From Clostridia bacterium (GTDB lineage: Bacteria > Bacillota > Clostridia > Oscillospirales > CAG-272): a stretch of 64,000 nucleotides of DNA. Position 1 is the stretch's first letter, and every line of letters begins with the position of its first letter. Below the pieces are notes generated by a model. The model did no database searches and had not been told where the DNA came from. It was given only the letters and a program-made list of their open reading frames with translations. The translations under genes were made by a program, and so were the position numbers. Below are positions 15,859 to 42,336 of the stretch, piece after piece. The stretch is taken from the NCBI GenBank assembly GCA_017399145.1, contig JAFQEG010000021.1, positions 50,348 through 114,347 of the forward strand. The letters are read 5' to 3'.

Positions 15859-17913
15859 ATGGCAGACAATTCATATTTAAATGTAGCGATAGATTTGGGC
15901 ACTGAATCTGTAAAAATAGTTTGTGCCTACAAAACCAAGGACGGAAAGGTTAAAAGACTCTTTCTTACCGACCAAGATGACCCTAATAATCAGCCTTTTA
16001 GTAGCTTGGCGCTTTATCAGGGACCGCCTCAATCTAAATGGGTATTTGGACAGGATATAAACAAAAAGGACGATTATGCAAACATAATAAGAGTAAAGGA
16101 AATGCTTTACCTGTTAGCATCAAAGAATGAAGCAGACAAGGATTACTATGAGAACAAAAGGAAATTTCCAATTTTTATTTTCCCACCAAGACCAGACCAA
16201 CCAAGCATTAAAAATGGTATGAGTCAGCTTGATGAGGACGGATATACCTTTGAGGCAGTTACAACCCCTCAAGAAATGGCACGTGAATTTTTTAAGGCTT
16301 TGTTTGAAAAATGCATAAAAAATCAAACAAAGAAGATTTTAAGTAGCAATCCACACTTAGAGGGAATCAAATACATATCAATATTCCCAGACCCTAAAAT
16401 GAAAGAGGATTACAAGAATGAGCTTGTAGATTTGATTGCGTATGGTGCTGGAATTGACGATATATTTGATAAAAAATCACTCCCAATTGTGTCTATGTCA
16501 ACTCCACAAGCAATCGCAATCGGTGCTTACGTTGAGAAAATGATAAAGGCAAACGACTATTCAAACGATGACAATAAGACCTTAATTTTCGATATAGGCG
16601 AAAGAAATATTTCTGTTGCAAAGGTTGACGTTAAGAACAGTGTAAGTGGAAAACAGGGGGAAATTAGCATTTGCGTAGATGGCGTAGATGAGAACGAATC
16701 CGAGTGTGCTATCGGTGGCACAGATATTGACGTTGCAATTGGTGAATACGTAAAGAGGAAAACCGAGGAAAATCTTCCTAAGGGCGAAAAATCGAGCATT
16801 GTTCAAGACTATATGTCCTATCGTCAGCAGTATCGCTTGCTAAGACATGTAAAAAGCGCAAAGAAGGGCTTCTTATATTTCGATCAAGCCTACGTTTTAG
16901 TAGAAAAAAGCATCAACTATGAAATTCCTGTTACAAAGGACGAATTTGTAGACATTATCTTCAATAATGGAAATGCAGTAGGAGAAAAAATTGCAAATTA
17001 CATTATTTCTGTGCTTGAAAGACAGGGTAATGAAAACGTAAAAAATGTTCTCTTAGTCGGTGGAGGCGCCGCATCTTACCATCTTCGTGATTACATTGAA
17101 GAAAAATGTAGCTCAGAGGAAAATGCTGGTAGGCTAGGACACGTAGTAATTTCAGCAACCGATAACGACGAAGACAAATTAAGCGAGTACTTTTCTGCAA
17201 TAGGTGCCGCAATGCTTGAGCCAAGTGGACTCTTGCTAAAGGTGGTATCTGCATACACCTATGGCACAAGTAGAATACAGTACGTACCCGTTGGTGGCAC
17301 CTACAAAGAGGAAAGAGTATTTACAATATGGATTAACCGTGGAGATGAGATAAGTAGCTTTGACCCTACTCCTGAGTGCGTGTCTAAAGCTAAATTTAGT
17401 GACTCTGTGTTTAGATACCCATATAGATTAAACCGTGATGTTTATTATGCCGAAGAGGATGAAAGAAACCATAATTACGAGGCATTTATTTACAGGGAGC
17501 CGCTAGTTCTTGGTAATCCAGAGAGCAAGGAATTTAAAAGGGCGCAGGAAAAGGGCGTAGTTACTATTGGAACAGCCAAAATTAAGTTGGCAATAATGCT
17601 AGATGGTAAAAAGGTGCCCTTCGAAGAGATATATTCAAAATATCCTGATCAACCATATATAAGATCGTACATTGAGAATATCAATGGAGTGAACTATGAA
17701 TACTTAGGATTGAATAAACGCTCTGTGTTCTTTAAGCAGGGTGCAAGAATTTCCTCAAATGGTAGGGTAACACCATACTATGAAATTGACGTAGATAGAA
17801 CTAAAAAAATGAACAATGGTGAGTTTTACGTAAATATTGGAAAACAGAAGTACGGTGTAGAGTATTTTACCTTCGACGGAAAGCTTGATCCATTTACGCC
17901 AGAGACAAACTAA
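15859..17913 (+). CDS. Hsp70/actin-fold ATPase, first gene of the large operon
   Basis: This is a 684-residue protein with the nucleotide-binding motifs of the Hsp70/actin superfamily: phosphate-1 VAIDLGTESVKI at residues 9-20, phosphate-2 LIFDIGERNISVAKV near 241, and adenosine motif LLVGGGAASYHLRDYI near 397. After about residue 460 the sequence does not resemble a DnaK substrate-binding domain; it is a 220-residue region I do not recognise. It is therefore Hsp70-like in its ATPase but not a general chaperone. Such divergent ATPases often serve as regulated clamps or assembly factors. It is followed after 12 bases by the SNF2 helicase with a clear ribosome site, so the two are co-translated. 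Confidence 0.88.
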   Translation: MADNSYLNVAIDLGTESVKIVCAYKTKDGKVKRLFLTDQDDPNNQPFSSLALYQGPPQSKWVFGQDINKKDDYANIIRVKEMLYLLASKNEADKDYYENKRKFPIFIFPPRPDQPSIKNGMSQLDEDGYTFEAVTTPQEMAREFFKALFEKCIKNQTKKILSSNPHLEGIKYISIFPDPKMKEDYKNELVDLIAYGAGIDDIFDKKSLPIVSMSTPQAIAIGAYVEKMIKANDYSNDDNKTLIFDIGERNISVAKVDVKNSVSGKQGEISICVDGVDENESECAIGGTDIDVAIGEYVKRKTEENLPKGEKSSIVQDYMSYRQQYRLLRHVKSAKKGFLYFDQAYVLVEKSINYEIPVTKDEFVDIIFNNGNAVGEKIANYIISVLERQGNENVKNVLLVGGGAASYHLRDYIEEKCSSEENAGRLGHVVISATDNDEDKLSEYFSAIGAAMLEPSGLLLKVVSAYTYGTSRIQYVPVGGTYKEERVFTIWINRGDEISSFDPTPECVSKAKFSDSVFRYPYRLNRDVYYAEEDERNHNYEAFIYREPLVLGNPESKEFKRAQEKGVVTIGTAKIKLAIMLDGKKVPFEEIYSKYPDQPYIRSYIENINGVNYEYLGLNKRSVFFKQGARISSNGRVTPYYEIDVDRTKKMNNGEFYVNIGKQKYGVEYFTFDGKLDPFTPETN

Positions 17914-17928
17914 ACAAGGAGAAAAGTG

Positions 17929-20892
17929 ATGGCAGAGGAAACTTTAAACGACAATTATAAAATAAATAAATATAAGATTGTCTTCAGCGACAATAGTAAT
18001 GAAAACATAACCATCGATTCACTAGTTCAAGAGCCTGTTGATTTAAACAAGAATTTGGAGCTTCAGGTTTCTCTTGTTGAAACTCTTGACAAGTATGATG
18101 ATATGCAGTTGAAAATCAGCTCTAATTCATACAGAAAGGTGGGCGAATACGGCATAGAGTATGACGAAAATATCCATGGTGGTGAAGCTGAAAACCCAGA
18201 GGGAAACGTTATTCTTAATGCACAGCGTAAGGCAGCCAAATATTTCCTAGGAACCCTTCGTGGCTTTGGTATTCTAGCGGACACCGTTGGCTCAGGTAAA
18301 ACCTATGAGGCTGGTGTGATTTTGTCCGAGCTTGCTTTAACCGGTAAAATTACGAACCTTCTTATCGTTGTACCAAATAGAGAGCTCCTTGTAAAATGGA
18401 AAAGGACCATAGAGTACGAATTCGGTATGGGCAAGGACACAATTTACGAGGTTGAGGATATTTCCAAGTTCTCAATCAAGGACGAAAACGGAAAAAGGAT
18501 AAGTGCCTTTACTACTGAAAAGTTTAACAAAAAGGGCGAAACAATAACTCTTTCAAAGCCTAACGTGGCAATGATTGTAACAAAGGATAATTTTGTTAAA
18601 TGGAATAAATGCTATTCGGCAGTAGAGAATCTATTGTTTGAATGTATAGTAGTAGATGAGGCACACTTCTTGAACGATGAAGAGGGCGATGGTGCGATTG
18701 CGCTACGACTTCTTTCAAGGCTTATGCAAAATAAGAAGATTGCTAACAAGGATAACTGTCTTCTTATTACTGCTACTCCACACTCAGGCAACCTAGAAAA
18801 GATGTTTAATCTATGGTATTTCAAGATTGCAGATGGTGGATATCCAAACGACTTTTATTCTCCAAGTGGCAAACCAAAAAGCGAAAAATATAATCAATAC
18901 AAAAAGCTTTTTGATAGCAACTGTAGATATGCAAAAACCGTTTCGGAATTTATCGAGGCGGCAAAGGATGAGTTCATAACCATCGCCAGTGACGAGGGTC
19001 GTGCATTCGCTGAATATCTTGGAAGGGAAGGCATAACTCTAGATCAGTATAGAGAGCTAACCGAGCTAGGAAGAAGAAATATAAGAGATAAATTCTTAGA
19101 TGCTAAGGAAAATTCAGCAATTAAGGAAAGTGTATTAAAGAAGGTTTCTAATCTCTATCATAGAAAAGTTATAGGTATGATAATGAGAAGAGAAACTCAA
19201 ACACATAGCAACGGTATTCAAAAGGACGTAACTAACATTTTCATCTGTCCTGTAAATGAAAAAACTCTCAAAATGAGAGAGGAAGACCTTCAGGAAAGAT
19301 GGAAGGCTGGTGACGGTATTTGCGAAAATCTTGATAGAATGTATGAGCCAGACGCTATCAAGATTAAAAGAGGAAACAAAACTATAAGCATATCCCTTGA
19401 AGAATACCTTAAGGAAAGAAGCAACAAGAAAAAGGTGGATATCATCATAGACGATGTGCTGTCCAATTCCTTATTTAAGGCAGATAGTAATACACCATTT
19501 ATTCAAGCGGGTAGCGCAGGATGCTACAAGCAGCTTTTAAGCGAAAACAAGAAGGATATCGAAAATGGATTGCTAGATAATCAGTTTAGAATTATGTATG
19601 ATTATGATAGCGAAAAGCCTGAAAACGTGTTCAACTTTAAGCTTAAGGAGCTTGAAAGAATTCTTGAAAACAACCCAGACGATAAAATAATAGTATTCTT
19701 TGATTATCAAAGGAAATGCAACATTGATTCCGAACCAGAATGGAACAAGATTTACGATGCATTTTCATCGGATCCTCGTTTTAAGGATAGACTAATTCTT
19801 GCTACCACAGGTAAAGAGGTGGTAAGTGAATATAACGCAAGGTCAAATGCTATATTCCTAGCAGGCTCGGAAAAGTACACTGAGGGTATCGATATGCAAA
19901 GTGGACATATTGTTGTAAACTTCTCAGTAACTCACGACCCAGTTGCAATGTCTCAAAGAGTAGGACGTGTATTTAGACTTGGTCAGGATAGAAACGTTCA
20001 AATTATTTCACTTGCTATGATGAACGAGCTAGAGGGCTATGCCCTTGCATATCAAACCTGCATAGGCTTGCTATCTACAAACGAGGGTGATGCCACAATT
20101 ATTGCAGGCTGTAATAGTGAAAATATGAAGGCATTTACCTGTAAATCCTGTGAGGATATGAAGCTTATGACCATAAAGGAATACGACGAGGAAAAGGATG
20201 AGGAAGGTTACATATACTGTAAAAATCCTTTGTGTAAGATCCAAAGTGGTGGCGACAAGAACAAGGGAATGCCATACACAGAAATCACAGCAACAGAGTA
20301 TAAATGTACCTCTTGTGGAGAAAAGCTAAGCAAGAGATTTAGCGAGGACAACGGCTATTATTGCCTATCTAGAAGTGATTCAGCTAGTGGTAAGATGTAT
20401 AGCATTGCCGACCCACAAAACAAGATAGTAATAGGCTGTTCAAAGCTTTGCGTTATAAAGCACTGTGCAAAAATTGCAAGCTTTGGTAAGGACGGTGTAA
20501 CCGTGCCTTGTGCTATTTTGAAAACTGGTGCAGACGACATAAACGACGCAAGAGCGCTTTGTATGAGGTGTGAAAACCTTAGAAAAGGCTTCTGCGATAA
20601 AAGGTGCTCAATGCTTTCAGCACTTGATTTTAGTGATTGTGGTAAGTGCTCGGATGCAAATTGTCATCCTAAGCCACACAAGATACAATTCGAAAACGAT
20701 ATGGCAGAATGTCCAGCATGTAAGAAAGGAACACTCAAGCCATCTGGCACAAAGACCTTTGCATCTTACCTATATCAGTCCTTTGAGTATGGTAGGAAGA
20801 AAATAGGAAGCGATTCCTTCTGTAAACGACTTTTAGGCGATAAGAATTCTGTTACAGATATTAGAATGGTCTTAGACAAGCACCAGGATTAG
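17929..20892 (+). CDS. SNF2-family helicase/translocase with C-terminal zinc-cluster region
   Basis: This is a 987-residue superfamily-2 ATPase. Motif I is ADTVGSGKTYEAG near residue 117, motif II VVDEAHFLND near 241, motif III TATPHSGN near 281, and the second RecA domain has EGIDMQSGHIVVNFS and SQRVGRVFRLGQDRNVQII near 675. These are SNF2/RapA-like double-stranded DNA translocase features. From about residue 735 to 940 there are many Cys pairs (CKSCEDM, CTSCGEK, CMRCENL, CGKCSDANC, CPACKKG), implying several zinc ribbons that may bind nucleic acid or protein. A GTG one codon upstream is possible; AAGGAG is spaced for the ATG at 17929. Second gene of the operon, 15 bases after the Hsp70-like gene. 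Confidence 0.9.
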   Translation: MAEETLNDNYKINKYKIVFSDNSNENITIDSLVQEPVDLNKNLELQVSLVETLDKYDDMQLKISSNSYRKVGEYGIEYDENIHGGEAENPEGNVILNAQRKAAKYFLGTLRGFGILADTVGSGKTYEAGVILSELALTGKITNLLIVVPNRELLVKWKRTIEYEFGMGKDTIYEVEDISKFSIKDENGKRISAFTTEKFNKKGETITLSKPNVAMIVTKDNFVKWNKCYSAVENLLFECIVVDEAHFLNDEEGDGAIALRLLSRLMQNKKIANKDNCLLITATPHSGNLEKMFNLWYFKIADGGYPNDFYSPSGKPKSEKYNQYKKLFDSNCRYAKTVSEFIEAAKDEFITIASDEGRAFAEYLGREGITLDQYRELTELGRRNIRDKFLDAKENSAIKESVLKKVSNLYHRKVIGMIMRRETQTHSNGIQKDVTNIFICPVNEKTLKMREEDLQERWKAGDGICENLDRMYEPDAIKIKRGNKTISISLEEYLKERSNKKKVDIIIDDVLSNSLFKADSNTPFIQAGSAGCYKQLLSENKKDIENGLLDNQFRIMYDYDSEKPENVFNFKLKELERILENNPDDKIIVFFDYQRKCNIDSEPEWNKIYDAFSSDPRFKDRLILATTGKEVVSEYNARSNAIFLAGSEKYTEGIDMQSGHIVVNFSVTHDPVAMSQRVGRVFRLGQDRNVQIISLAMMNELEGYALAYQTCIGLLSTNEGDATIIAGCNSENMKAFTCKSCEDMKLMTIKEYDEEKDEEGYIYCKNPLCKIQSGGDKNKGMPYTEITATEYKCTSCGEKLSKRFSEDNGYYCLSRSDSASGKMYSIADPQNKIVIGCSKLCVIKHCAKIASFGKDGVTVPCAILKTGADDINDARALCMRCENLRKGFCDKRCSMLSALDFSDCGKCSDANCHPKPHKIQFENDMAECPACKKGTLKPSGTKTFASYLYQSFEYGRKKIGSDSFCKRLLGDKNSVTDIRMVLDKHQD

Positions 20893-20941
20893 TAAATCCT
20901 TATGTAGAGTGAGGACAATCCAACGACGAAAGGGAGAAATA

Positions 20942-22714
20942 ATGCAAACGATATACATAAAAAGTGGTGACGAATGCTTTAAAAGCCTACTAATGCTTTA
21001 CGAAAGTGGCTATGGCAAGGATATATATTCCGTCTCAAACAACACCATTATTTTCAACAATTGTTGCTTTACTATGATAGAAAAAACAAATAATGAAAAT
21101 GATGAACAAAAAGACGGTGATAGTTATCCAATGGACCCTCAAAAAGGTTCACCTGCCTTTGCTAACTTCCGTAGAGGCGAAAGAGGAATCAAAACCAGTA
21201 TGGCAAGATGGAAGGAGTTAATTACAGAGGTAAGTAAGAGCTTCCACAAGGAAAACACCTGGTTAAGATACGACACAACAAGCTCCGAGGCAAGTCCAGA
21301 GGTAATAAAGGCTGACATGAATAAAATTAAAGCCTTCTTGAATAGATTTTGGGACGAAAGAATAGCCAAGAATTTTGAAATTGACTATAAGCTAAACCCA
21401 AATGCAAGTGATGCAATTACAACTATTTACGGTGCTAGCTTAAGGCTTGGTATTTGTGTTGAACGTCCAAAGGAGGAAATACCAATTGTAGGTAGAATCT
21501 TCTTTAAAAGAGAGCTAAATAATAGCCTTGTGCCATTACCCTATCAGGTGGCTGAAAACATTTCAGAAAAGCTAAAGATTTTTGAAAAACCAAACGGCAC
21601 CTCAAGGACAACACAAAGGGGCGCAGACGAGGACAATTACGATTTCAACCATCTATCAACGGCGCTTCAAGAGGGAATACAAAGGTGTATTGCTGACGAT
21701 AGCGAGCTAGGACTTGCTAACTATTTGATTGTAAAAAGCGATAGAGATCAAAATGGCGCAATCATTGATGATAATAAGATAATCGAGAATATTATTAAAA
21801 AGGCCACAGAGGAAGACATAAAGGTAGAGGAAATTACTTGTAAAAACATCAAAATGCTCTATATGTTTCAGGTAAGAACAAGAAATAGAGTATATGAGGT
21901 AAAATACAATGACAGACCCGTTCTTAGAATAATGATAGATATGAACGAGGACTTTTCCATGAGGTGCCTATGCTGTAATGAGTCAGAATTACTAGTAGAA
22001 AGAAATACCGTAACCTTTAGAAAATATGACGAAAACGGCAAAGAGGAGTCGGTTGAAAGAGCTACACTAGACTTCAGTGATACAATGAATACAGGATTGC
22101 CTATAACAGACCCAATGTATGTAAGAGTTATGGAAAAGCTAGGCGATCACATTAAGCTAATTACCTGTAATGAGGCAAACGGCTGTAAACGTATTAAATG
22201 TAGCTGTGATATTGTTAAAGCGGATGCAATGGGCGATGTAGGTAACAGAGAATATTGTGCCGATTGCGAAAAATTCGAGGTAATTTATCACGTTGACGGA
22301 AAGCCTAGGTGCACTAGCAAGCTTGTTTACGATTGTGAAAAGAACGACCTTGTTGTTGCTCAAAACGGTCAAACCTGCAAGGTTTGTGGTAGAACCTATT
22401 ATCAATCAAAACTTACCGATGGAATGTGCGAATTTTGTCAGGGAACTGATGAGGAGCAAATAAAGAAAGCAACAAAGCTTTATAAAATCTACTCAGAAGC
22501 ACTTTCACCAATGACACGATTGACCCATCTATTTGCAGAAAAGGGTTGCTTTGAGGACGAGGAGGTAATTGTGTTTAAGCTAGGAAACGATTATTACACA
22601 ATAGATAAGCTACAGTCCTTAGGAAACAGCAAAAAATTCCTTTCAACGGCGAAATTCAAGTATAGAGTGATGACCGAAAAGAAAAAGGAACCTAAGAAAC
22701 AAGTACAAGAGTAA
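20942..22714 (+). CDS. Zinc-cluster protein of unknown function
   Basis: This is a 590-residue protein. The ATG at 20942 is preceded by AGGGAG at correct spacing; an upstream GTG at 20909 is unlikely. The first 340 or so residues have no recognised motif. From about 340 on there are Cys-rich segments: CLCCNES near 342, CNEANGCKRIKCSC near 407, YCADCEKF near 438, CKVCGRTYY near 479 and MCEFCQG near 495. These suggest two or three zinc-binding knuckles, echoing the zinc-cluster tail of the helicase before it. The C-terminus is Lys-rich (KKKEPKKQ). It probably works with the SNF2 protein as an adaptor; no enzyme motif is seen. Confidence 0.8.
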   Translation: MQTIYIKSGDECFKSLLMLYESGYGKDIYSVSNNTIIFNNCCFTMIEKTNNENDEQKDGDSYPMDPQKGSPAFANFRRGERGIKTSMARWKELITEVSKSFHKENTWLRYDTTSSEASPEVIKADMNKIKAFLNRFWDERIAKNFEIDYKLNPNASDAITTIYGASLRLGICVERPKEEIPIVGRIFFKRELNNSLVPLPYQVAENISEKLKIFEKPNGTSRTTQRGADEDNYDFNHLSTALQEGIQRCIADDSELGLANYLIVKSDRDQNGAIIDDNKIIENIIKKATEEDIKVEEITCKNIKMLYMFQVRTRNRVYEVKYNDRPVLRIMIDMNEDFSMRCLCCNESELLVERNTVTFRKYDENGKEESVERATLDFSDTMNTGLPITDPMYVRVMEKLGDHIKLITCNEANGCKRIKCSCDIVKADAMGDVGNREYCADCEKFEVIYHVDGKPRCTSKLVYDCEKNDLVVAQNGQTCKVCGRTYYQSKLTDGMCEFCQGTDEEQIKKATKLYKIYSEALSPMTRLTHLFAEKGCFEDEEVIVFKLGNDYYTIDKLQSLGNSKKFLSTAKFKYRVMTEKKKEPKKQVQE

Positions 22715-27646: not shown

Positions 27647-28871
27647 ATGCGAAAGCTGTGGAAAACAGTATAAACAAACGTTAACAAGCTTTTTAGGCGT
27701 TGAATATTGTCCCCACTGTCATGAAGGAATATTGCCAACCAAAAGAACAATTCTCAAGGTAACACCGGAGAGCAGAGTTGCCTATGTACAGGCTGAAAGG
27801 CTTTTCAAGGAGGGATACCTTCTAAATAAGGCAAGTAGATTTGGCTTTAAGGACAAGGGTGATGCACTTGAGAGGGCAGTTGAAAATGATAAGCAGGCGG
27901 GCTTAGTTTTACATGACCCCTATGCGCTTAATGCACTAGCATTATTTTACGAGCATAATTGTGTCGACGATACAAACGACAAAACTGTTTCCTGGAAAAA
28001 GGCGTTAACTCTTTTTGAGTCGGTAGGCTTGAATGAGGAGCTTGAGGGCTCTTTAGAAATGGAAACACTAGAAAAATACGAAATACAGCTAAAGGCATGT
28101 ATAGGACTATTAAGGCTCTGCAAGAATGCTCCGCAAAGATTCCAAAACGAGGAAACACTTTTCATAGGAAATGCTGCAGTAACCAAAATAGGAAGGATGC
28201 TCAGAGAGTACCCTGATCTATTAAGCCGAGAGCACAGAAAGCTAGTTGAGGAAGCAGGGGAAACCTACAGAAGAGGACAGGACGCAAGGCTTGTTGAATG
28301 TGTGGATATTGATGGGGTAACAGAAGCACTTCTAGACCTTATCAAGCACCAAAGCGAGGGTAAGACCTTTATGCTAGTTTCGAGCATGACAAGAGAAGCA
28401 TTCATACAGCTTTCAGACCATACACGTACGATTACTAGAAACGGCAACAAAGTTAGCTTTGTTGAGAGTGTATTAGCTCAATGCAACAATATGCGCTTAT
28501 ACTTCGGTGCATTTAAGGATGACGGAAGAGGAAAGGAATTGATTCCAATAGATGGCAAAAGACGTCGTTGGCTACCTCTTGACGAGTTCACTGGTGCAGG
28601 AAAAACAATTCTTGAGCAAAAGGATATTTATTTCACAGTTATAGGCGTCTATATGGAAAAAATGTTCAAGCTTAAGAAAAAAACTGTATCAGAAGAGCAA
28701 TATGAGAAATTTGACGAAGAGCTAGAGAACTCAGGCTTACTTGATAAGCTAAGTAATGTCAGCTTGAAAAATGAATATAGATTCACAACTGACGATTTGT
28801 TGCTTACAAGAGAAGACAATTACATTGAGGCTATTGAAAAAATTATAGATAGCATTCCCAAAATTCATTAG
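27639..28871 (+). CDS. Zinc-ribbon protein of unknown function, coupled to the MBG protein
   Basis: This is a 410-residue protein. Residues 4-28 form a zinc ribbon (CESC near the start, CPHC about 20 residues later). The following 380 residues have helical, Sel1/TPR-like stretches (AYVQAERLFKEGYLL; DPYALNALALFYEHN) and no catalytic motif I recognise. The ATG at 27639 lies inside the end of the MBG gene with an ideal GGAGGGAG ribosome site; longer starts would remove the zinc ribbon from the N-terminus. The coupling suggests a stoichiometric partner of the membrane protein, perhaps the cytosolic adaptor linking it to the ATPases. Confidence 0.8.
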   Translation: MSKCESCGKQYKQTLTSFLGVEYCPHCHEGILPTKRTILKVTPESRVAYVQAERLFKEGYLLNKASRFGFKDKGDALERAVENDKQAGLVLHDPYALNALALFYEHNCVDDTNDKTVSWKKALTLFESVGLNEELEGSLEMETLEKYEIQLKACIGLLRLCKNAPQRFQNEETLFIGNAAVTKIGRMLREYPDLLSREHRKLVEEAGETYRRGQDARLVECVDIDGVTEALLDLIKHQSEGKTFMLVSSMTREAFIQLSDHTRTITRNGNKVSFVESVLAQCNNMRLYFGAFKDDGRGKELIPIDGKRRRWLPLDEFTGAGKTILEQKDIYFTVIGVYMEKMFKLKKKTVSEEQYEKFDEELENSGLLDKLSNVSLKNEYRFTTDDLLLTREDNYIEAIEKIIDSIPKIH

Positions 28872-30726: not shown

Positions 30727-30744
30727 AGGTGAAGGGAGTAAATG

Positions 30745-32721
30745 ATGATCGATTTAAAAAAGAGATTCAATGACGCAATAAACCGAGCAAATAATGTCTA
30801 TAAGAATTCGTTAAACCCTGAGGAGCTTAAAAACGCACACGCAAGTCTAACACCTATTATCAAGCTAAAGAATAGTGACGATGACTATAACGAGCTAATC
30901 ACTAATGCAAATGCTCTAAGCCTTCGTATAGGTGCTAAGAGAATTGCCTTTGATGCAACAAGAAACAATCTTGATTACGATTTGGATTGGGCACAAAAAA
31001 AGCTTAGTGAGCTCGAAGCATCTGCAAGCGCTGGTGGATTTTCTAAAACCTATGCACTAATTCTAAGGGTTCAAAAGTTAATTAGTAGCCTTAAGGAAAT
31101 ATACAGCCAAAGCAAGTTTATACGTGCTAGCTATCAAAATGACCGTGGGGCAAATAGCGAAAGCGTTGTCGCACAAGCAAAGGCGCAGTATGGTGAGCTT
31201 TACAAGGAGTGCGACAAGCTTCCTACAGAGGCTGAAATTTTCACAGGTGTTGCCTTTCTTGACATTAAGGCGGAAACTCGTGAGTTTATTGATAGCTTAA
31301 TTCAAGAGGCAGAGGATAATCACAAAAGACTTACCTCGAATAGAGTAAGCGAAAGAATAAACGGCATAGTAAATGCTTTACCTGATGAGTGGAAGAGTGG
31401 CTACCATTTCTGTCCAGGCATTACAAGTGGCTCTAACAAAATGATGGTTGTGCTAACACCATTTAGAGAGGAATTTTCCTTCCTTGCATACTCTTATGCA
31501 AGAGATAATGCTGGACGTGTAGCTATAATAGACGTTAGCTCAAAGGTGTTCGGTGGATGTGTTGAAAGTGATATAAATGCAATTTTTGATTATCTAGCTA
31601 CAACTGCTGACGTGTTAGCAATTACAGGATTAGCAATGTACTACGATAACAACAAACCTGCAATTTTAAGGGCACTTTATAGAGTTGCGTGCTCCAAGAA
31701 GGGTATAGGCGTTTTCATTCACGATTTTAACAGTAGACTTACTGTTTGGAAGGAAATTGAGGACGCACTACCTAAGGCATACGACATATACTATATGTAT
31801 CTAAAGCTTCCTGGCTTTAGAGAAACCGTTGATGCGATAAGAGATGCAAGTGTAAGACAAGAAAATGTTGATGAAATCTTCATCAAGAAGCATTGTGCAT
31901 ATCTTGGCTATGTTGGTGTAAACGACATAATTAAAAGAGTTAAGGACGATTATACCTGGGACTTTAAGGATTTTGCTGAGATACGTTCGATTGAGAATTA
32001 TGGCAAGGTTATAAATTACATAATGGACCTAAAGAGCGACTCTCAGCTTGTTGACCCAAGCTGGGGCATATCCTACGATAAGGCTATTGACGAGAGCTTT
32101 GAGCCAAGAAAGAGCTTTGGTGGATATGATTACGACACTAAGAGAAGACTCAATCCACAAAATATAAAGCTTATAACTGAGGCAGAAAACTTCTCATTAC
32201 CAGCAAAGTGTGGACTTGTTACAAACTATTGTCTGCTTTGCGGAGACGACAAATCTACATGGTATGAATTGGATGATGAGGAGCAGTTTTACAGATTGAG
32301 TGTAGCTACAAAAACTGTTGGAAGACTTCTCAACACTGAATACGACCCAGAAATAGAAATTAAGACAAGCGAAGACGGTAAGAACGGTGGCGCATATTGC
32401 TCTGGTGCAGGAAAGCTAATCGTTTATTACGACGGAGCACTTAAAAATTATGACGAGCTACTTAAAACCGTATGTCACGAAATGTTCCATTCTTTCCAGT
32501 ACACAGCAATGCATTTTGGCTGGAAGAGATGGCACGAAAGTGAGTTATTAGTGTGCAAGGCAAGAGTGGATGAATGGTCTGAGTGTGAGCCAAAATATAT
32601 TTCCTCTAAGGAAAACGAAAGAGCTTACAGAATACAAGGACTAGAGGTAGATGCACGTGTCTTTGCTACTCAAGCAGCTACTAACTTAAGTACGAACTGG
32701 TCAAAAATAAATTTACTCTAA
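30745..32721 (+). CDS. Predicted zinc metallopeptidase-like (HExxH) protein of the operon
   Basis: This is a 658-residue cytosolic protein. Near residue 580 is CHEMFHSFQYTAMHFGW, an HExxH zinc-binding signature in a helical context, with a downstream Glu (IQGLEVDARVFATQA) that could be the third ligand of a gluzincin. The N-terminal 230 residues are helical. The middle (about 225-420) has an alpha/beta pattern (NKMMVVLTPFREEFSFLAYSYA, GRVAIIDVSSK, DVLAITGLAMYY) without a P-loop. Two ATGs are adjacent; AGGGAG is better spaced for 30745 than 30742. Its substrate is unknown; within the operon it could cleave one of the coiled-coil partners or a foreign protein. Confidence 0.78.
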   Translation: MIDLKKRFNDAINRANNVYKNSLNPEELKNAHASLTPIIKLKNSDDDYNELITNANALSLRIGAKRIAFDATRNNLDYDLDWAQKKLSELEASASAGGFSKTYALILRVQKLISSLKEIYSQSKFIRASYQNDRGANSESVVAQAKAQYGELYKECDKLPTEAEIFTGVAFLDIKAETREFIDSLIQEAEDNHKRLTSNRVSERINGIVNALPDEWKSGYHFCPGITSGSNKMMVVLTPFREEFSFLAYSYARDNAGRVAIIDVSSKVFGGCVESDINAIFDYLATTADVLAITGLAMYYDNNKPAILRALYRVACSKKGIGVFIHDFNSRLTVWKEIEDALPKAYDIYYMYLKLPGFRETVDAIRDASVRQENVDEIFIKKHCAYLGYVGVNDIIKRVKDDYTWDFKDFAEIRSIENYGKVINYIMDLKSDSQLVDPSWGISYDKAIDESFEPRKSFGGYDYDTKRRLNPQNIKLITEAENFSLPAKCGLVTNYCLLCGDDKSTWYELDDEEQFYRLSVATKTVGRLLNTEYDPEIEIKTSEDGKNGGAYCSGAGKLIVYYDGALKNYDELLKTVCHEMFHSFQYTAMHFGWKRWHESELLVCKARVDEWSECEPKYISSKENERAYRIQGLEVDARVFATQAATNLSTNWSKINLL

Positions 32722-32736
32722 TGGGAGAAAAGATTG

Positions 32737-35700
32737 ATGAATAAGAATGACATTATAAAAAAGTATATTGTTGAATTTCTTCATGTAAATGATGAAGCCA
32801 ACAATCGCATGATGGATCTTTACGGAAGCGGAAGAGCAAACTCCATTACAATTAACATTTGTGACCGCATAAGCAATCAAGAGAAGCTTTACGACCGCAT
32901 CGTAAACAGAATAAAGGCTAGATATGGAAGACCTGCGAATACAGCACTTCGTGATAGCTCATTACAGGGTACTGTTGGAAACGTTGATGATGTAAACGTG
33001 CTGGACTGGGCGATTTTTAAATACGAGGACGTTGATAACGACTATAAGCTTAAGCTATTAAACAAGCTTGCAAATAGCTCCTTAGCTGAATTGAAGCAAA
33101 AGGGAGTAAACTCCTTATTTATGTCAGTAGGCGCTATTGAATGGGATATACCAGACCCAGACGACAGCCAAAAGACTATAAAAATCACAACACCACTATT
33201 GATTTTTCCAATCAAGCTAAATCGAGCACAGGGCTTAATGCCAGTTATGGTAGAATTTGTTGCAGACGATATAAGATTAAACCCATGTCTTATTGAGAAG
33301 ATTGGCCGTGTATATAATTTTGAGCTTGCAGAGAAATTCCCAAGCCCAAGACTTGTTGAGGGCTCAGTAGATATAGACGCACTTGATATTGTTGACTATT
33401 TTGCAAGAGTAAACACCTTTATAGGTGAAAACTTTAGAGATTCAAGAAGAGAGTTTAAGCTTTTGAATAATAATATAGCAATTTCCAACTTCAATAGCTT
33501 GGATATAGCTATGTATTACGACCTAATCAACCACCAAAAACAGCTTGAGGACAGCCAAATGATTGAAAAGCTATTTTCAAGCGTTGAAAGAATTGACAAC
33601 GAGCAGGTTGTAGCTCCTCTTATCACCTTGCCAGCAGATAGCGTACAAGAGAAAATTCTTTCAAGAGCAGTAAATGGCGATGATATGATAATTAAGGGCC
33701 CTCCAGGTACAGGAAAGACTCTTACAATTGCAAACCTTATAGCATCACTTATGGGTGCAGGTAAAAAGGTAATGTTCGTATCTGCTAAAACCTCAGCTCT
33801 TGCCGAGGTGTGCAACAAGCTACCTGAGTGCCTAAGACCATTCGTGCTAGAGCTATTCTGCGAAAGTGAGGCAGAGGCTGCAAACTTTAGCGTAACTGAC
33901 CTTACAAATTCTCTTAGAAGAGCAAGAGATGCAGAGCCTGTAAAGGATGAAAATCTACTTAAGCACGAAATTCAAGGCTATAAGAATAGAAAAAATGAAG
34001 CCTCTGACTATATTAGAAGCTACAAGGAGTACTATTTTACAAATCCAAATCCTGTTTCAGGACGTGCCTTTTATGCAACAATCAATAAGGCGTTAAAGTA
34101 CGAGGGTGACCCACAGCTAAGAGGTGCATTTATTGGAAGAACCTCTAGAATATCCGTTGAAGACTACAACAAAATGCAGGGCGCAGTAGAGCTATGCGAA
34201 ACTAACCTTAATCATATTACTAACAATGGTGAAAAGATTGCTGTTGACGGACCATGGTATGATGCTGAAACAACAGTAACCCCATTGATGATTGAGGGCG
34301 AAATCAACGAGGTAGTTGCAGGACTTAAGGTTATTTCAAGCAAGATAAGACAATTCCTAAAGGACCTTGGAATAAACGACAAGGACGGAGTAATTAAAAT
34401 AGCCTTGTTTATGTCAATAATTGAGGCTGAGCTTACCAAGGAAGAAATCAATAAAATAATTGTAGGAAACGTTCGTCACTCCTTGTTGCAAAATCTAAAG
34501 GATATGACAGTAGAATATTATCTTGATAGTGAGCGCAAGTCATATCTTGAGGAAGCTATTAAGGATAAGCTAACTCTAACAAGTCTTGACGAGGAGACAG
34601 TTGTAAATACAATTAAAGCTCTTGGTGAAAATGCAAAAACCAACAAGAGCGTAAATGAGCTTCGTGAGATTAAGGGCTCAATTGAAAAGATGAATCTTGC
34701 AGTTGAGGAGTCCTGTGATATAGTTCTTGACGTATTCGAAAGCTATAATCAAAAGGCAAATGATCTAGCAAGGATTGAAGAAGAAATAGATGGCCTTATT
34801 GTAGTAGTTGGTAAGCAAAGAGACGTTCGCAAGGAACTTCTTGAGCAACATAGCGAAACTCTTGCAAGGCTTGCTCAAAGGGATGTACAAAAGTTCTCAA
34901 TCTTTGAGGGTAAGGCTAAAAAGGCTTACGAGGAAATTGCAAAGCTTCCTATCAGCAAAAAGCCTACAATCAACGATGTTACAAAGGCTTGTGAGCTTTA
35001 CGAAATGATAAAGACCAAGGAAAACGAAAAGAAAGAGGTATTCAATCGTTTCGTTGAAATGTTCGGTGAGGAAATTACCGAGGAAGACGTTAACAAGGTA
35101 CAATCCTTCATCAGCCTAGGCACCAACAAGTCAGAGCAAAAGGAAATTCTCAACAATCTACTTAAAGAGGCACTTCTTGTTGAAAAGGCGCGTGGTATGA
35201 TAACCTCATCACTTGAAAGAGTTGAAAATGAGCTTAACAATAAGAATTCAACAGACCTTGCTGAGTGCTTAAAATATGCCTTTGAAAGAGCAAAGATTGG
35301 TGAACTATTTGGACAAGTGTGTGCTGAGCTAGGACTTGGTAAGGACAAGGAATTTACCGACCTAGAGGACGCAAACACAATCGTATCACTAAGAGAGCTT
35401 GCAGGATACTTTGTATATAACCAAACAAGAGTTGATACAATTTGTGAGTTCATAAAGGAAAAGGATAACATTTTAAACGGCTTAATTCAGCTAGGCGCAT
35501 TTGCACAAAAATACAATCTAAATCCCAAATATACCTATATTGGTTCACTTACACTTGTTGACATTGACCGCTTTATCGAGGATATTCCTGACGCAAGAAT
35601 AAGCAATGCTTGTCAACAGCTAAAGCAAACAATGGAGGAGGATGACCTAGGTTGCTTCAAATCATTCCTTGATTACTTTGCAACAGGAAAATCAAGACTT

Positions 35701-37353
35701 CCAAGAAGAGGTGAACTAAATATGTCACAACTTCTTGAGTATGCTTACTATAATGCTTGTACTATCGACACAGAGGGTGAGCTAACAAAGAATGGTGGAG
35801 CAGTATATGATGGAACTATGCTAAGAGCAATGGAAAAGAATCTTATTTCTTCCTCTTCAATGCTTGCAAGAAGCCAAGCAAAATATATTGCTCATAAGCT
35901 AAGCATTAAGGATAAGACCTCGCCAAAGTATGCGTTCTTAAATAACGAAAAACCAGCTAACATTAGCGCAAGAGTATTCTTTAAGCAAAACGCAAGTGCA
36001 ATTCTATCACTTGCAAGATGTGTGGTATTGTCACCATACTCAGTAAGTGTATTTATGAAGCCACAGGAATACTTTGATTACGACGTGCTTATCGTTGACG
36101 AGGCTTCTCAGCTTCACGCAAGAGAAATCTTACCTTGCTCAATTCGTGCAAAGCAGGTAGTTCTAGTTGGTGACCAAAACCAAATGCCACCAATCACCTA
36201 CTTCCAAAGAAAGGATAACAACACAAGCAAGGAGGACGACGAAACTGAGGGTAGCAACATGTCACAGGCAGATTCAATTCTCGACCTTGCTATTAAAAAC
36301 AAGTCTATTGCAACTTCTGAATTGCTATGTCACTATCGTAGTAGAAATGAGTCCTTGATTGCGTACTCACAGAAAAAATACTATGACGGCATGACAACCT
36401 TCCCAACCGCTAACCCAGAGGTTGACGGTCGTGGCTTGATTGACGTATATGTTGAGGGTAGCCACGTAAACGGCGAAAATATAGTTGAGGCAAAAAAGGT
36501 TGTTGAGCTTATTGAACAGCATTTTGAAACTTACTTCGACGAGGAAGCTCAGATGCTTCGCGAGTCACTTGGTGTAGTAGTATTCGGTAAGAGTCAGCTT
36601 GAATGTATTACAAAGCTCATTGATAAGAGAGATATAAGAAACAAGATAAATGCTGCAAGAGCAAACACAAGAGATAATCCTGACAAGACCTACTTCATCA
36701 CAGCAGTTGATGCAGTACAGGGTCAGGAAATCGAGCACTTAATTATATCCTTGACATATTGCAAGAAGAGTGCAGACGGCACAGTAAAGCAAAGCTTCGG
36801 TATGTTGAACAGAACTGATAACGGAGAAAGACTTGGCGAAAGAATATTCAATGTTGCCGTAACTCGTGCAATTAAGTCCTTGACCTTTGTTCACTCCGTT
36901 AAATCAAGCGAAATTACACATAAAAACCTATCACACCTACGTGAGTATCTAGAAATGCTAGAAAATCTAGGTAGCAAGAAGGATGAGGCTCAACCAAAAT
37001 TCGTTTCCAACAAGGATAAGGTTGACGAGTTTGCTCTAAGCATTAAGAGAGCAATATCTGAGCTTATCTCTGATGAGGACAGAATAGTTTATGGTTATGG
37101 TGTAACCGAAAAATCCTTAAGAATTCCAATCGTAATTCTCAATAAGGAAAAGACACATGCTGAGCTTGGTATTTTCTGTGAAACAGATATTAAGGATGGC
37201 GAAAGATACACAGACACTTGGGTTAACTACCCAGAAACCCTTGAGGTGCGCAACTGGACCCTTCACAGAATGTATATTCATGACTGGTACTTCAACCACG
37301 ATGTTGAGTTAAGGGCACTACAAAACGCAGTTCAACCATTCATTACAGAGTAA
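32737..37353 (+). CDS. SF1 (UPF1/DNA2-like, DUF4011-type) helicase, very large
   Basis: This is a 1538-residue protein. The N-terminus carries a DUF4011-like region (NSLFMSVGAIEWDIPDPDD ... ITTPLLIFPIKLNR). Motif I KGPPGTGKTLTIANLIA is near residue 320. After a coiled-coil insertion of several hundred residues come motif II IVDEASQLHAREILP near 1121, VVLVGDQNQMPP, HYRSRNESLI, VDAVQGQEIEHLIIS near 1323 and NVAVTRAIKSL near 1371. The last 100 residues (IPIVILNKEKTHAELGIFCE ... NYPETLEVRNWTLHRMYIHDWYFN) resemble the Vsr/MTES-type endonuclease domain that often ends such helicases, but the catalytic acidic residues look incomplete. AGGAGA-like GGGAGA favours the ATG at 32737 over a TTG at 32734. 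Confidence 0.88.
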   Translation: MNKNDIIKKYIVEFLHVNDEANNRMMDLYGSGRANSITINICDRISNQEKLYDRIVNRIKARYGRPANTALRDSSLQGTVGNVDDVNVLDWAIFKYEDVDNDYKLKLLNKLANSSLAELKQKGVNSLFMSVGAIEWDIPDPDDSQKTIKITTPLLIFPIKLNRAQGLMPVMVEFVADDIRLNPCLIEKIGRVYNFELAEKFPSPRLVEGSVDIDALDIVDYFARVNTFIGENFRDSRREFKLLNNNIAISNFNSLDIAMYYDLINHQKQLEDSQMIEKLFSSVERIDNEQVVAPLITLPADSVQEKILSRAVNGDDMIIKGPPGTGKTLTIANLIASLMGAGKKVMFVSAKTSALAEVCNKLPECLRPFVLELFCESEAEAANFSVTDLTNSLRRARDAEPVKDENLLKHEIQGYKNRKNEASDYIRSYKEYYFTNPNPVSGRAFYATINKALKYEGDPQLRGAFIGRTSRISVEDYNKMQGAVELCETNLNHITNNGEKIAVDGPWYDAETTVTPLMIEGEINEVVAGLKVISSKIRQFLKDLGINDKDGVIKIALFMSIIEAELTKEEINKIIVGNVRHSLLQNLKDMTVEYYLDSERKSYLEEAIKDKLTLTSLDEETVVNTIKALGENAKTNKSVNELREIKGSIEKMNLAVEESCDIVLDVFESYNQKANDLARIEEEIDGLIVVVGKQRDVRKELLEQHSETLARLAQRDVQKFSIFEGKAKKAYEEIAKLPISKKPTINDVTKACELYEMIKTKENEKKEVFNRFVEMFGEEITEEDVNKVQSFISLGTNKSEQKEILNNLLKEALLVEKARGMITSSLERVENELNNKNSTDLAECLKYAFERAKIGELFGQVCAELGLGKDKEFTDLEDANTIVSLRELAGYFVYNQTRVDTICEFIKEKDNILNGLIQLGAFAQKYNLNPKYTYIGSLTLVDIDRFIEDIPDARISNACQQLKQTMEEDDLGCFKSFLDYFATGKSRLPRRGELNMSQLLEYAYYNACTIDTEGELTKNGGAVYDGTMLRAMEKNLISSSSMLARSQAKYIAHKLSIKDKTSPKYAFLNNEKPANISARVFFKQNASAILSLARCVVLSPYSVSVFMKPQEYFDYDVLIVDEASQLHAREILPCSIRAKQVVLVGDQNQMPPITYFQRKDNNTSKEDDETEGSNMSQADSILDLAIKNKSIATSELLCHYRSRNESLIAYSQKKYYDGMTTFPTANPEVDGRGLIDVYVEGSHVNGENIVEAKKVVELIEQHFETYFDEEAQMLRESLGVVVFGKSQLECITKLIDKRDIRNKINAARANTRDNPDKTYFITAVDAVQGQEIEHLIISLTYCKKSADGTVKQSFGMLNRTDNGERLGERIFNVAVTRAIKSLTFVHSVKSSEITHKNLSHLREYLEMLENLGSKKDEAQPKFVSNKDKVDEFALSIKRAISELISDEDRIVYGYGVTEKSLRIPIVILNKEKTHAELGIFCETDIKDGERYTDTWVNYPETLEVRNWTLHRMYIHDWYFNHDVELRALQNAVQPFITE

Positions 37354-37367: not shown

Positions 37368-38081
37368 ATGGATTCACAAAACAGAATGCTTGGTGGCAGA
37401 CAGCTTGGCCAATCAAGAGATGAAAACGTAAAGAAAAGAGCACTTATGAGATCTCTTGAGCAAAAGGAAAAGGATTCCGCAATGAAGTTCGATGAGCTAG
37501 TAAACAAGCTTAACGAAATTGAAGAATCAGACCTATCTCAAAAGAGCGTTTTAAAGGTTACACTAATCAACGCAATAAATATGATTGCACAGTTTAGAGA
37601 GGTTATTGAAGAGGTTAAAACCATTCAGCTTACCTTTGATGCTTTAACCACAACTCTAGGAATAGTAGACGATTCCTTTAAGCTAATACATACAATGGTT
37701 CAAGAGCAAATTGCTCAAGACCCAGGTGCCTTCTACGGCTCAAGGGTTTCTGCAGAGGTTGAACAGATGGGCAGAAGCATCAATAGACGCTTTGATGGCC
37801 TAGGTGCAGTTGTAGGTATTATGCCAAAGCTACATGGCTTTATGGGAAACCTTAATAACAAGATTGGTAGATCTATGGGTAAGGCAAGTAAAATAGGCAG
37901 AAAAAAGAGTAGCAACGATGATGGCAACTACGGTGCTGAGCTTTCACCACAAGCACTTGCTATGATCAATAAGAAGGGCATGAAATACAGTGGTGGCAAC
38001 TCAGGTGGTAGCTCTGACGGTGGTAACTCTGGAGGTAAACCAGTTCCACCATCTAGTGGCAAGCCATCAGAGGGTATTTAA
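37368..38081 (+). CDS. Small helical protein with Gly/Ser-rich tail
   Basis: This is a 237-residue cytosolic protein. Residues about 20-120 are helical with coiled-coil character (LEQKEKDSAMKFDELVNKLNEIEESD ... MIAQFREVIEEVKTIQLTF). A basic patch (GRSMGKASKIGRKKSS) near 175 is followed by a low-complexity Gly/Ser/Pro tail (GGNSGGSSDGGNSGGKPVPP). There is no TM segment or catalytic motif. It sits 14 bases after the SF1 helicase and 78 bases before the AAA ATPase. Size, helices and a flexible tail make it a plausible polymerising substrate or adaptor of that ATPase, but this is inference only. Confidence 0.75.
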   Translation: MDSQNRMLGGRQLGQSRDENVKKRALMRSLEQKEKDSAMKFDELVNKLNEIEESDLSQKSVLKVTLINAINMIAQFREVIEEVKTIQLTFDALTTTLGIVDDSFKLIHTMVQEQIAQDPGAFYGSRVSAEVEQMGRSINRRFDGLGAVVGIMPKLHGFMGNLNNKIGRSMGKASKIGRKKSSNDDGNYGAELSPQALAMINKKGMKYSGGNSGGSSDGGNSGGKPVPPSSGKPSEGI

Positions 38082-38126: not shown

Positions 38127-38159
38127 GCCTAGCATAAAGCTAACGGAGGTATTAGATAA

Positions 38160-39398
38160 ATGGGAAAAATAAACAGAGGCAACAATAACGTAGATTACGA
38201 TGTAGCCGACGAGCAAAACAAAAGAAGAGACGAACAAAACACCGAGCTTCAATCATATATAGCTGAATACGATAAGCTAAAAATAGAGGTTATCAACACA
38301 AGAAAAGATAGCAAAAAGATGGCACCTGAGGAAAAGGTAGCAATTAGAAAGCTATATAACAAAATGTTCCGCTTAGCAAAAAAGATAAGCGAAATGGCAA
38401 CCTCTCAAACAACTATTGACGATTATAAGGAGGCTCAAAAGGTAACTAGCGCAAGAGCAAAGGAATACGGCTCTGCGATAGTAGGCGAGGCACCAAAGAC
38501 GAGAATGGAGGACATTCAAGGTCTTGAAAACGTAAAGGAGCTAATAAACAGCTTCCTATTTATGCTTAAAAACCCTGAGCTTGTAGCCCACTATAATGTT
38601 GAGGGTGGCTGTAATATGCTAATGTATGGAGCACCTGGTACAGGTAAGAGTATGTTCGCAGAGGCAGTAGCTAGCGAAATGGAGCTTCCTATCTTTACAA
38701 TAAAGCCCTCGGACATTTTCAAGCCTTATGTAGGTGAATCTGAGGCATCTATAAGAGACCTGTTTGCCGAGCTTGACACCTGTGACGATGGTGCAGTTGT
38801 GTTCATAGACGAGTGCGAAAGTATATTCGGTGTAAGAAAGGCTGGCTCAAACGACGCATCAAAGGCTGTAACAAACGAGCTTCTACAAGCAATGAACGGC
38901 TTTGGTGTTGATAGAAGAAAGATAATTATGATGGCAGCAACAAACTGTCCTGAAATGATTGACCCAGCATATCTTCGTTTCAAGCGTTTCTCTCACATAG
39001 TACACGTAACACCACCAGATACTGATGCGATAGAGGCACTAGTAAAGAGAAAGCTAAGATACGGCGCTCCTGAGATAGTAGATGGAAAGCCAGTACCTAA
39101 AAACAAGGCTCCTATTAAGCTAAATGCAGACGTAACCATTGACTACATTGTAAACGAAATAGAGAGAAGAAGAAAAAAGGTAAATGGCAAACCAACCCTA
39201 TACTTCACACCAGCCGACATCAACGGAATTATTGAAGAGGCTTGTCGTCAAGCACTTGTTTATATTCAAACAAATAAGCTAACCGAGCCAATTTCCCTTT
39301 CAAAGGAAATGTTCGAAAAGGCATTCGATAAGGTGCCACCAAGCGTAACCCAAGCAAAAATCGATGCTCTCGACAAATTTAGAGAACAGAACAAATAA
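38160..39398 (+). CDS. Vps4/katanin-like AAA ATPase, last gene of the operon
   Basis: This is a 412-residue classical AAA ATPase with one ATPase domain. Walker A is MYGAPGTGKSMFAEAVA near residue 156, pore loop SDIFKPYVGESE near 185, Walker B AVVFIDECESIFG near 213, sensor 1 MMAATN near 257, then DPAYLRFKRFSHIVHVTPP. The N-terminal 120 residues form charged helices (TELQSYIAEYDKLKIEV ... LYNKMFRLAKKISEM), comparable in position to the substrate-recruiting region of Vps4/katanin-type enzymes. It lacks FtsH membrane and protease parts. It is expected to form a hexamer that threads or disassembles a protein partner, possibly one of the operon's coiled-coil proteins. The ribosome site GGAGG precedes the ATG. 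Confidence 0.88.
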   Translation: MGKINRGNNNVDYDVADEQNKRRDEQNTELQSYIAEYDKLKIEVINTRKDSKKMAPEEKVAIRKLYNKMFRLAKKISEMATSQTTIDDYKEAQKVTSARAKEYGSAIVGEAPKTRMEDIQGLENVKELINSFLFMLKNPELVAHYNVEGGCNMLMYGAPGTGKSMFAEAVASEMELPIFTIKPSDIFKPYVGESEASIRDLFAELDTCDDGAVVFIDECESIFGVRKAGSNDASKAVTNELLQAMNGFGVDRRKIIMMAATNCPEMIDPAYLRFKRFSHIVHVTPPDTDAIEALVKRKLRYGAPEIVDGKPVPKNKAPIKLNADVTIDYIVNEIERRRKKVNGKPTLYFTPADINGIIEEACRQALVYIQTNKLTEPISLSKEMFEKAFDKVPPSVTQAKIDALDKFREQNK

Positions 39399-42330: not shown

Positions 42331-42336
42331 GATTGA

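Follow-up and report, generated by a model that had tools for sequence, protein, structure and literature searches.

The ten-gene locus

The subject of this work is a run of ten open reading frames (ORFs) in a 64,000-nucleotide stretch of contig JAFQEG010000021.1 from a Clostridia bacterium (assembly GCA_017399145.1), the whole of which is called the window below. The ten ORFs all lie on the forward strand, at 15859-39398, and encode proteins of 684, 988, 601, 1638, 420, 591, 659, 1539, 237 and 412 amino acids (genes 1-10; Table 1). An earlier sequence-only reading had described an operon of same-strand genes with short or overlapping junctions, and this arrangement is borne out: intergenic gaps measure 12-78 bases and the single overlap, of 38 bases between genes 4 and 5, becomes smaller if an internal ATG is taken as the start of gene 5. 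The second codon is the probable start of genes 2 and 8, and an internal ATG that of gene 3. The SNF2 translocase, SF1 helicase and HExxH protein named in that reading were recovered as domains or motifs in genes 2, 8 and 7, respectively, and its giant surface protein is gene 4, with transmembrane-like segments followed by a large MBG region.

The same reading had proposed one promoter and a terminator only at the end. A consensus scan does place suitable sites at both ends of the operon (Table 1), all of them being sequence-pattern matches, but their exclusivity is less clear. Promoter-like sites number 44 in the first half of the window against 32.7 (standard deviation 5.4) in shuffled sequences and 32 against 29.9 (standard deviation 4.8) in the second half; the corresponding figures for terminator-like sites are 7 and 14 against 8.6 and 8.5. 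Promoter-like sites as a whole somewhat exceed the shuffle level in the first half and lie near it in the second. Weak internal sites are possible, and a single promoter and single terminator is best described as plausible. Recent foreign origin, judged by G+C content, finds no signal, the operon having a value of 0.390 and the remainder of the window 0.397.

Table 1. Genes and candidate transcription signals at the locus, in window coordinates
Feature	Position	Strand	Description	Basis
Promoter-like site	15784..15812	+	TTGACA-17-TAAAAT, 11 of 12; best + strand site, 46 bases 5' of gene 1	Consensus scan
Gene 1	15859..17913	+	Hsp70-like ATPase domain; C-terminal region without recognised family	Profile matches, weak
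Gene 2	17926..20892	+	SNF2-type translocase; C-terminal cysteine-rich (zinc-cluster) region, 31 Cys in total	Pfam, NCBIfam, PADLOC, alignment
Gene 3 (Zn3)	20909..22714	+	Cysteine-rich zinc-cluster protein, 22 Cys, no named family	Pfam, alignment
Gene 4	22730..27646	+	Membrane protein; five N-terminal transmembrane-like segments, then large MBG-domain region, predicted extracellular	Pfam, hydropathy
Gene 5	27609..28871	+	N-terminal CxxC...CxxC motif; very weak Sel1-like similarity	Alignment, profile
Gene 6	28909..30684	+	Helical/coiled-coil protein	Sequence features
Gene 7	30742..32721	+	HExxH protein; SprT-like match under cut-off; missing from five- and eight-gene forms	Alignment, profile
Gene 8	32734..37353	+	DUF4011 SF1 helicase; C-terminal MTES_1575-type domain; missing from five- and eight-gene forms	Pfam
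Gene 9	37368..38081	+	Small helical-looking protein; Gly/Ser-rich tail, window copy ending PSEGI	Sequence features
Gene 10	38160..39398	+	Cdc48/Vps4-type AAA ATPase; N-terminal region of about 100 residues	Pfam, PDB profile search
Terminator-like hairpin	39566..39593	+	11-pair stem and T tail; strongest of its kind, 3' of gene 10	Consensus scan
Second promoter-like site	39675..39703		3' of the hairpin	Consensus scan

Conservation of the gene set and its forms

A search with gene 1 through the window's family matched 2 of 295 genomes, one of them the window's own; the other holds a remote relative, 25% identical, on whose contig Hsp70-like, SNF2, Zn3 and MBG genes follow one another in the same order until the contig ends. 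A two-row SNF2 profile similarly matched 2 of 391 genomes of the class, again including the window, and the second genome has five genes in the same order. With an SNF2 alignment of three rows as query, a scan of genome contigs produced 28 loci, labelled as Clostridia, Christensenellaceae and further groups of Clostridia and almost always from metagenome-assembled genomes or uncultured bins; this figure is a lower bound since the scan covers only stretches with two peptide patterns. Iterated profile searches recovered the order Hsp70-SNF2-Zn3-MBG at 27 of the 28 loci, the contig of the remaining one (L035) stopping inside the SNF2 gene. With G886, G907 and G922 added, 31 genomes besides the window carry the whole or part of the cluster, counting as one genome each G355 and L032, G837 and L034, and G889 and L011. 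Most of the proteins are 14-50% identical to their window counterparts, with higher values for L011. Accidental adjacency, which the sequence-only reading had left for neighbourhood analysis to decide, is rejected because the gene order is conserved in diverged genomes.

The cluster occurs in several forms. All ten genes are present on one contig in the window, G852, G886, G855, G867, G869, G871 and G874, and genes consistent with the same form are spread over at least two contigs in G853, G857, G861, G868 and G870. In G855 (L072, 1428-5255) and G867 the HExxH gene of this form is a tandem pair. An eight-gene form, having genes 6, 9 and the AAA gene but neither the HExxH nor the SF1 gene, is found at L013, L015, L017, L018, L019, L021-L025 and L038, in G922 and at L036, where gene 9 is duplicated and the AAA gene lies just past the examined stretch. 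The smallest form is a five-gene core composed of the Hsp70-like, SNF2, Zn3 and MBG genes and a second zinc protein (gene 5), with none of genes 6-10 adjoining. It is seen at L034/G837, where genes that by eye are hrcA-grpE-dnaK follow, and in G907, where it sits between genes that look, again by eye, like housekeeping genes. No AAA match was obtained genome-wide in G907, nor any SF1 match in G875, the genome of L034. Upstream of the G837 core, at L010 18663-20000, is an ORF with the look, by eye, of a site-specific recombinase.

A different order is present at L037: a gene 6-FtsK fusion, gene 9, AAA, a CvpA-family gene, Hsp70-like, an RNA-ligase-family gene (8172-8792), SNF2, Zn3 and MBG. Three contigs end early, within or after the MBG gene at L031 and L032 and within the SNF2 gene at L035; the genome of L031 has an operon-type SF1 gene on a separate contig. 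The natural five-, eight- and ten-gene and FtsK forms show the cluster to be modular.

Distribution, phylogeny and selection

In the window's genus the SNF2 gene was found in 3 of 29 genomes. The three carriers have a common chromosomal site, and none is among the 11 genomes of 90% or greater completeness. Within the family of G862 the gene is present in 16 of 46 genomes, and the AAA gene accompanies it closely, being found in 15 of these 16 and in none of the 30 others. A gene 1-family profile run over 398 genomes of the phylum matched only the window's own protein, as did gene 1 alone over 197 genomes of the order; gene 1 alone found no relative in a scan of genome contigs and no match in plasmid or phage records. 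Profiles of the SNF2 and Hsp70-like proteins found no relative in viral contigs, in a scan of only those stretches with set peptide patterns. As some genomes are incomplete, absences are approximate.

For comparison with the species history, RpoB was sought in 30 genomes, matched in 27 and used from 26 (ORF longer than 600 amino acids). The RpoB and SNF2 trees have 13 of 23 splits in common, mainly shallow ones, and their distances correlate with a Spearman coefficient of 0.59. Of the SNF2 splits supported at 0.9 or more, seven clash with RpoB splits of like support; these are mostly deep, with one inside the family of G862. The pattern suggests that descent was mainly vertical within shallow clades, with transfers linking the deeper clades.

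These data bear on the idea that we are dealing with ordinary co-located genes or, as the sequence-only reading offered as an alternative, with a housekeeping nucleoprotein machine special to the lineage. The common chromosomal site of the three carriers and the shared, mainly shallow, splits would suit such an explanation, but it sits badly both with the 26 genomes of the genus in which the SNF2 gene was not found, 11 of them at least 90% complete, and with the gene order conserved across diverged genomes. We regard it as very unlikely: patchiness, tree conflicts and modular variation together fit an accessory system better.

Ratios of nonsynonymous to synonymous substitution rates (dN/dS, by the Nei-Gojobori method) of 0.02-0.33 over all ten families indicate purifying selection; they derive from five genome pairs among the window's relatives, rather than from the window itself, with one pair in two pieces and the HExxH and SF1 values taken from a single pair. 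The MBG protein has the highest ratio in every pair (0.13-0.33). The lowest belong to the AAA and SNF2 proteins in three of four eight-gene pairs, and to the AAA protein in the ten-gene stretch containing it. Within the window's genus, gene 6 is the least conserved (29-39% identity) and SF1 the most (66-79%), compared to 92-95% for RpoB.

The core genes

Motor motifs are conserved across the ATPase families of the operon, as assessed in alignments from which duplicate rows and rows shorter than 70% of the median length had been removed. The assignment of gene 1, described in the sequence-only reading as an Hsp70/actin-fold ATPase, is weak. Its residues 129-423 align with DnaK over 242 columns in hhalign with an E-value of 5.8e-4, although the probability is only 29%; weak profile matches were also obtained to DnaK in the PDB (E 9.7e-4) and to HscA in NCBIfam (E 2.2e-4, far under the cut-off), and gene 1 was absent from the results of a genome-wide Pfam HSP70 search. 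Motifs nevertheless line up, the DnaK segments VFDLGGG, LGGDDFD and KVLLVGG pairing with IFDIGER, IGGTDID and NVLLVGG. By eye, a phosphate-1-like DLG is located at residues 12-14. The phosphate-2 loop is altered, GGGT of DnaK being GERN in the window, with GEE in place of GGG in the family consensus, and this suggests slow hydrolysis or a switch.

Gene 2 contains ResIII/SNF2 and Helicase_C domains according to Pfam, and in its family alignment the SNF2 core motifs are kept and many of the cysteines are conserved. For gene 3, as for genes 6 and 9, the only matches in Pfam and the PDB were to generic zinc fingers and coiled coils.

The MBG_2/MBG_3 domains of gene 4 are preceded by five transmembrane-like segments, a feature seen by hydropathy in all five MBG proteins examined. 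The part following these segments is less conserved than the transmembrane part in eight of nine pairs, the exception being the window and G852 (65 against 62%). Membership of this protein in the minimal core invites the explanation that the whole operon has a lineage-specific envelope or surface function, either adhesion or the assembly, export or turnover of the MBG protein served by chaperone-like ATPases. The matching G+C contents of the operon and the rest of the window would agree with it, as would the flanks of other loci, where the 10 of 17 proteins with a Pfam family are metabolic, transport, tRNA-synthetase or spore and cell-wall proteins and one Band_7 protein. A surface function would leave unexplained, however, why an SNF2 protein is a core gene and why SF1 and FtsK motors alternate, and has to accommodate patchy presence and tree conflicts; we consider it unlikely.

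The add-on genes 6, 7 and 8

A gene 6 profile made without the window's clade detects the window gene 6 at an E-value of 1.3e-6 and that of G852 at 1.8e-15; hhalign, over 268 columns with 18% identity, returns 96%. These scores are equalled in size by the coiled-coil bias term, so that homology of gene 6 in all forms of the cluster is likely, short of certain. Subject to the same caveat, these matches counter the notion that gene 6 is unrelated filler. In the L037 fusion (262-3069) a gene 6 relative is joined to an FtsK/SpoIIIE motor domain, and the fused protein ends in ADIDDITR, an IDDI-type tail like that of gene 9. This genome yielded no SF1 match.

In gene 7, H579, E580, H583 and the downstream E635 are invariant in 13 of 13 rows, and the protein is possibly a zinc protease. 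A CdvA-like match in one of 13 members (E 0.042) was treated as chance.

Gene 8 carries, by Pfam, DUF4011 and AAA_11/AAA_12, with MTES_1575 under its cut-off, and its helicase motifs are conserved. In nucleases of the MTES_1575 type a D and the E(C)DG motif are catalytic. Among operon SF1 proteins, in all 13 copies covering the motif, this D is replaced by P, the E by W, F or M, and the D of the motif by E; L056, from the genome of L031, is altered in the same way. Eleven other DUF4011-type paralogues of the same genomes differ, six (L050-L055) keeping both D and ECDG and five (L057-L060 and L068) the D only. The six with the intact-looking motif sit elsewhere in eight-gene genomes. The nuclease-type domain of gene 8 thus looks degenerate and would be expected not to cut; restriction through cutting by gene 8 is made unlikely by the altered motif.

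The FtsK fusion at L037 and the RNA-ligase-family gene inserted there, together with the recombinase-looking ORF upstream of the L034/G837 core (judged by eye), raise the prospect of a membrane apparatus for DNA uptake, export or element maintenance. We think this improbable. No relaxase, pilus or integrase family was found by Pfam among the ten proteins, and neither the plasmid and phage records searched with gene 1 nor the pattern-based SNF2 and Hsp70-like scans of viral contigs gave any match.

Genes 9 and 10 and the ESCRT question

In 22 of 25 genomes gene 9 has a tail in which a stretch rich in Ser and Gly is followed by a terminal I-(D/S)-D-(I/V/L); among background ORFs, not all of them necessarily genes, 7 of 165 have such a motif. 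As related genomes are not independent, these counts describe a pattern and not a probability. The tandem duplicate of gene 9 at L036 (13402-14792) lacks the C-terminal motif in its second copy.

Gene 10 had been called a Vps4-like AAA protein. In favour, Pfam reports Vps4_C (PF09336) at 23.6 bits against a cut-off of 21.3, in addition to AAA; against, the top PDB relatives are of p97/Cdc48 type (E 5e-79) and Vps4 is not among the best 60 of 259. The N-terminal region of gene 10 in the window's clade is 18-29% identical to others and 67% identical to that of a congener, a divergence that would fit a changed docking pair.

The layout of genes 9 and 10 resembles that of ESCRT-III and Vps4, with homology to ESCRT-III and MIT not detected. 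A correspondingly ESCRT-like explanation would have gene 9, and perhaps gene 6, polymerising under the gene 4 anchor to remodel the membrane, gene 10 disassembling the polymer, and the helicases performing a linked nucleoprotein step. It draws on the Vps4_C score and on the position, beside the AAA gene, of a small helical-looking protein with a linker and a C-terminal motif, a similar motif being present in some gene 6 tails (7 of 25) and in the FtsK fusion. Nevertheless, neither MIT in gene 10 nor Snf7/PspA in gene 9 is among the matches listed, PDB profile searches returned no ESCRT relative, the best relatives of gene 10 are of the p97/Cdc48 type, and genes 6, 9 and 10 are all missing from the five-gene form. 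Membrane remodelling of this kind accordingly seems to us rather improbable.

A proposed mechanism

The reading that we favour, tentatively and a little short of even confidence, is that of an accessory machine, anchored in the envelope and driven by ATP, which would remodel DNA or complexes of DNA with protein but not cut them. Gene 4, with its five transmembrane segments and fast-evolving MBG ectodomain, would anchor this machine and sense or bind something outside the cell. Genes 3 and 5, the zinc proteins, and gene 1, as an Hsp70-like switch, may couple gene 4 to the SNF2 core motor. In the larger forms the coiled-coil proteins 6 and 9 would assemble with the core, and the AAA protein of gene 10 might extract or recycle them by way of their C-terminal tails, in the manner of Vps4 acting on ESCRT-III. 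An additional DNA motor would be supplied by the SF1 helicase of gene 8 or by FtsK fused to gene 6, and a possible protease by the HExxH protein of gene 7. The most likely role of such a machine would be defence at the envelope, where foreign DNA, from phage or otherwise, would be blocked or stripped as it arrives; to this role we give about half the credence given to the machine itself. In favour of the machine are the conserved order of the core genes, the core standing by itself in two genomes, the AAA gene tracking the SNF2 gene in the family of G862, the conserved motor motifs, the five transmembrane-like segments, the FtsK fusion, the altered nuclease-type motif, the gene 9 tail motif, the patchiness and tree conflicts, and the high dN/dS of the MBG protein. 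The envelope-anchored remodelling machine suggested in the sequence-only reading is partly supported on these grounds; the gene forms, the tails of genes 6 and 9 and the FtsK fusion go beyond that reading.

Several observations weigh against this proposal. DNA as the substrate is deduced from helicase families and one fusion, and the Hsp70 assignment of gene 1 is weak. An adhesin would equally fit the fast evolution of the MBG ectodomain. In gene 8 an acidic residue persists one place further on (CE for CD), so that the loss of cutting is an inference. The tail motif on which gene 10 is proposed to act is missing from gene 9 of the window and of two congeners, all ending in GI, and occurs at the end of gene 6 in only 7 of 25 genomes. 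No MIT domain was found by Pfam in the window gene 10 (all 18 families) or in the best 25 of 55 for 18 N-terminal regions, and no Snf7 or PspA by Pfam in the window gene 9 or in the best 25 of 49 families for 22 members. Finally, no defence family reached its NCBIfam cut-off, where one is given, with any of the ten proteins.

Neighbouring genes

No clear defence island was apparent, PADLOC having been applied to the 10 window neighbours only and the flanks of other loci having been compared by Pfam only. Two of the 10 window neighbours gave PADLOC matches: an HD-domain protein on the minus strand at 10443-11672, matching the dGTPase model with 148.9 bits, and a 567-residue protein at 7067-8770, matching mad8 with 45.5 bits. 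HD proteins of the dGTPase type are often housekeeping proteins. A small BspA-type leucine-rich-repeat protein is encoded upstream of the operon on the minus strand, at 13366-14124. Downstream, at 39770-49309, is a further operon encoding a 511-residue protein, a MoxR AAA protein, DUF58, BatA/vWA, an 893-residue vWA protein and a 537-residue protein; a MoxR match is present in 24 of the 29 genomes of the genus, some being just about 62% identical paralogues, which places this operon outside the present system.

At the other loci, Pfam families were assigned to 10 of 17 flanking proteins, with none for the other seven. They comprise carbamoyl-phosphate synthase/DAP epimerase, Glu/Gln-tRNA synthetase, a permease, MFS, Fe-ADH (twice), a cell-wall hydrolase, YpeB, SpoIIR and Band_7.

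Comparison with known systems

The sequence-only reading could not map the operon onto a named defence system, and this conclusion stands. PADLOC returned generic motor similarities only (for gene 2, among the best 25 of 32 families) and no match for genes 1, 3, 4, 5, 6, 7 and 9, and identity with a known defence system is ruled out on the combined PADLOC, NCBIfam and Pfam results. Nor did searches of the open-access PMC library find a description of the operon, and there is none in the portions consulted of PMC11090510, PMC7159879, PMC11237479 and PMC11890865.

The resemblances to known systems are partial. Gene 2 matches DrmD of DISARM with 80.8 bits and RapA with 69.6 bits in NCBIfam over its ATPase parts, far under cut-offs of 610 and 576, respectively; its PADLOC helicase-core matches include one DrmA model among the best 25 of 32 families, whereas DrmB, DrmC and a methylase were not reported among the other nine proteins. 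It similarly matches BrxHI/BrxHII of BREX with 79 bits over the ATPase parts (PADLOC, where no cut-off is given), but PglZ, BrxC and PglX/methylase were not reported by Pfam or PADLOC in the ten proteins. Gene 8 shares with Hhe and ProA (PDC-S37) an SF1 core, DUF4011 and the C-terminal MTES_1575 layout, scoring 407.1 bits against a cut-off of 1500 for ProA and 293.9 against 2000 for Hhe; it differs in the substitution of two acidic residues in the nuclease-type motif and in its position within a ten-gene operon. Gene 10 resembles the AAA protein of IetAS (92.7 bits, under the cut-off of 510), and a possible protease is present in the same operon, yet no subtilase (Peptidase_S8) was reported and among the matches listed this AAA protein is closest to p97/Cdc48. 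With the ESCRT-III/Vps4 (Cdv) pair the operon shares a small helical-looking protein with a C-terminal motif adjoining a Vps4_C-bearing AAA protein, but not detectable Snf7, PspA or MIT homology, and in the window's genus the tail motif is missing.

Two further comparisons concern organisation. ZorD of Zorya is SNF2-like, but no MotAB-like ZorA/ZorB motor was found by PADLOC and no nickase effector was seen. The likeness to Zorya is in the idea of function only, Zorya being a membrane-anchored complex coupled to cytosolic effectors (PMC11890865). In type III CoCoNuT systems, nucleic-acid enzymes have coiled coils and an Hsp70-like domain in their vicinity (PMC11090510); these systems differ in that neither the McrB GTPase nor McrC/DUF2357 was reported by Pfam in the ten proteins.

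It is conceivable, if doubtful, that the operon represents an undescribed class of machine, in which a transmembrane surface receptor would be wired to an Hsp70-like/SNF2 core, with a tail-reading AAA add-on of separately arisen ESCRT-like logic and swappable SF1 or FtsK motors, achieving nuclease-free exclusion or stripping of DNA at the envelope. Were it defensive, foreign DNA would be stopped at the membrane by remodelling instead of cutting; were it ESCRT-like in logic, it would provide a bacterial example of AAA-driven tail recognition. With its conserved gene order, modular build and several ATPases, an anchor in the envelope and no nuclease that looks intact, the operon is unlike the defence and surface systems with which we have compared it.

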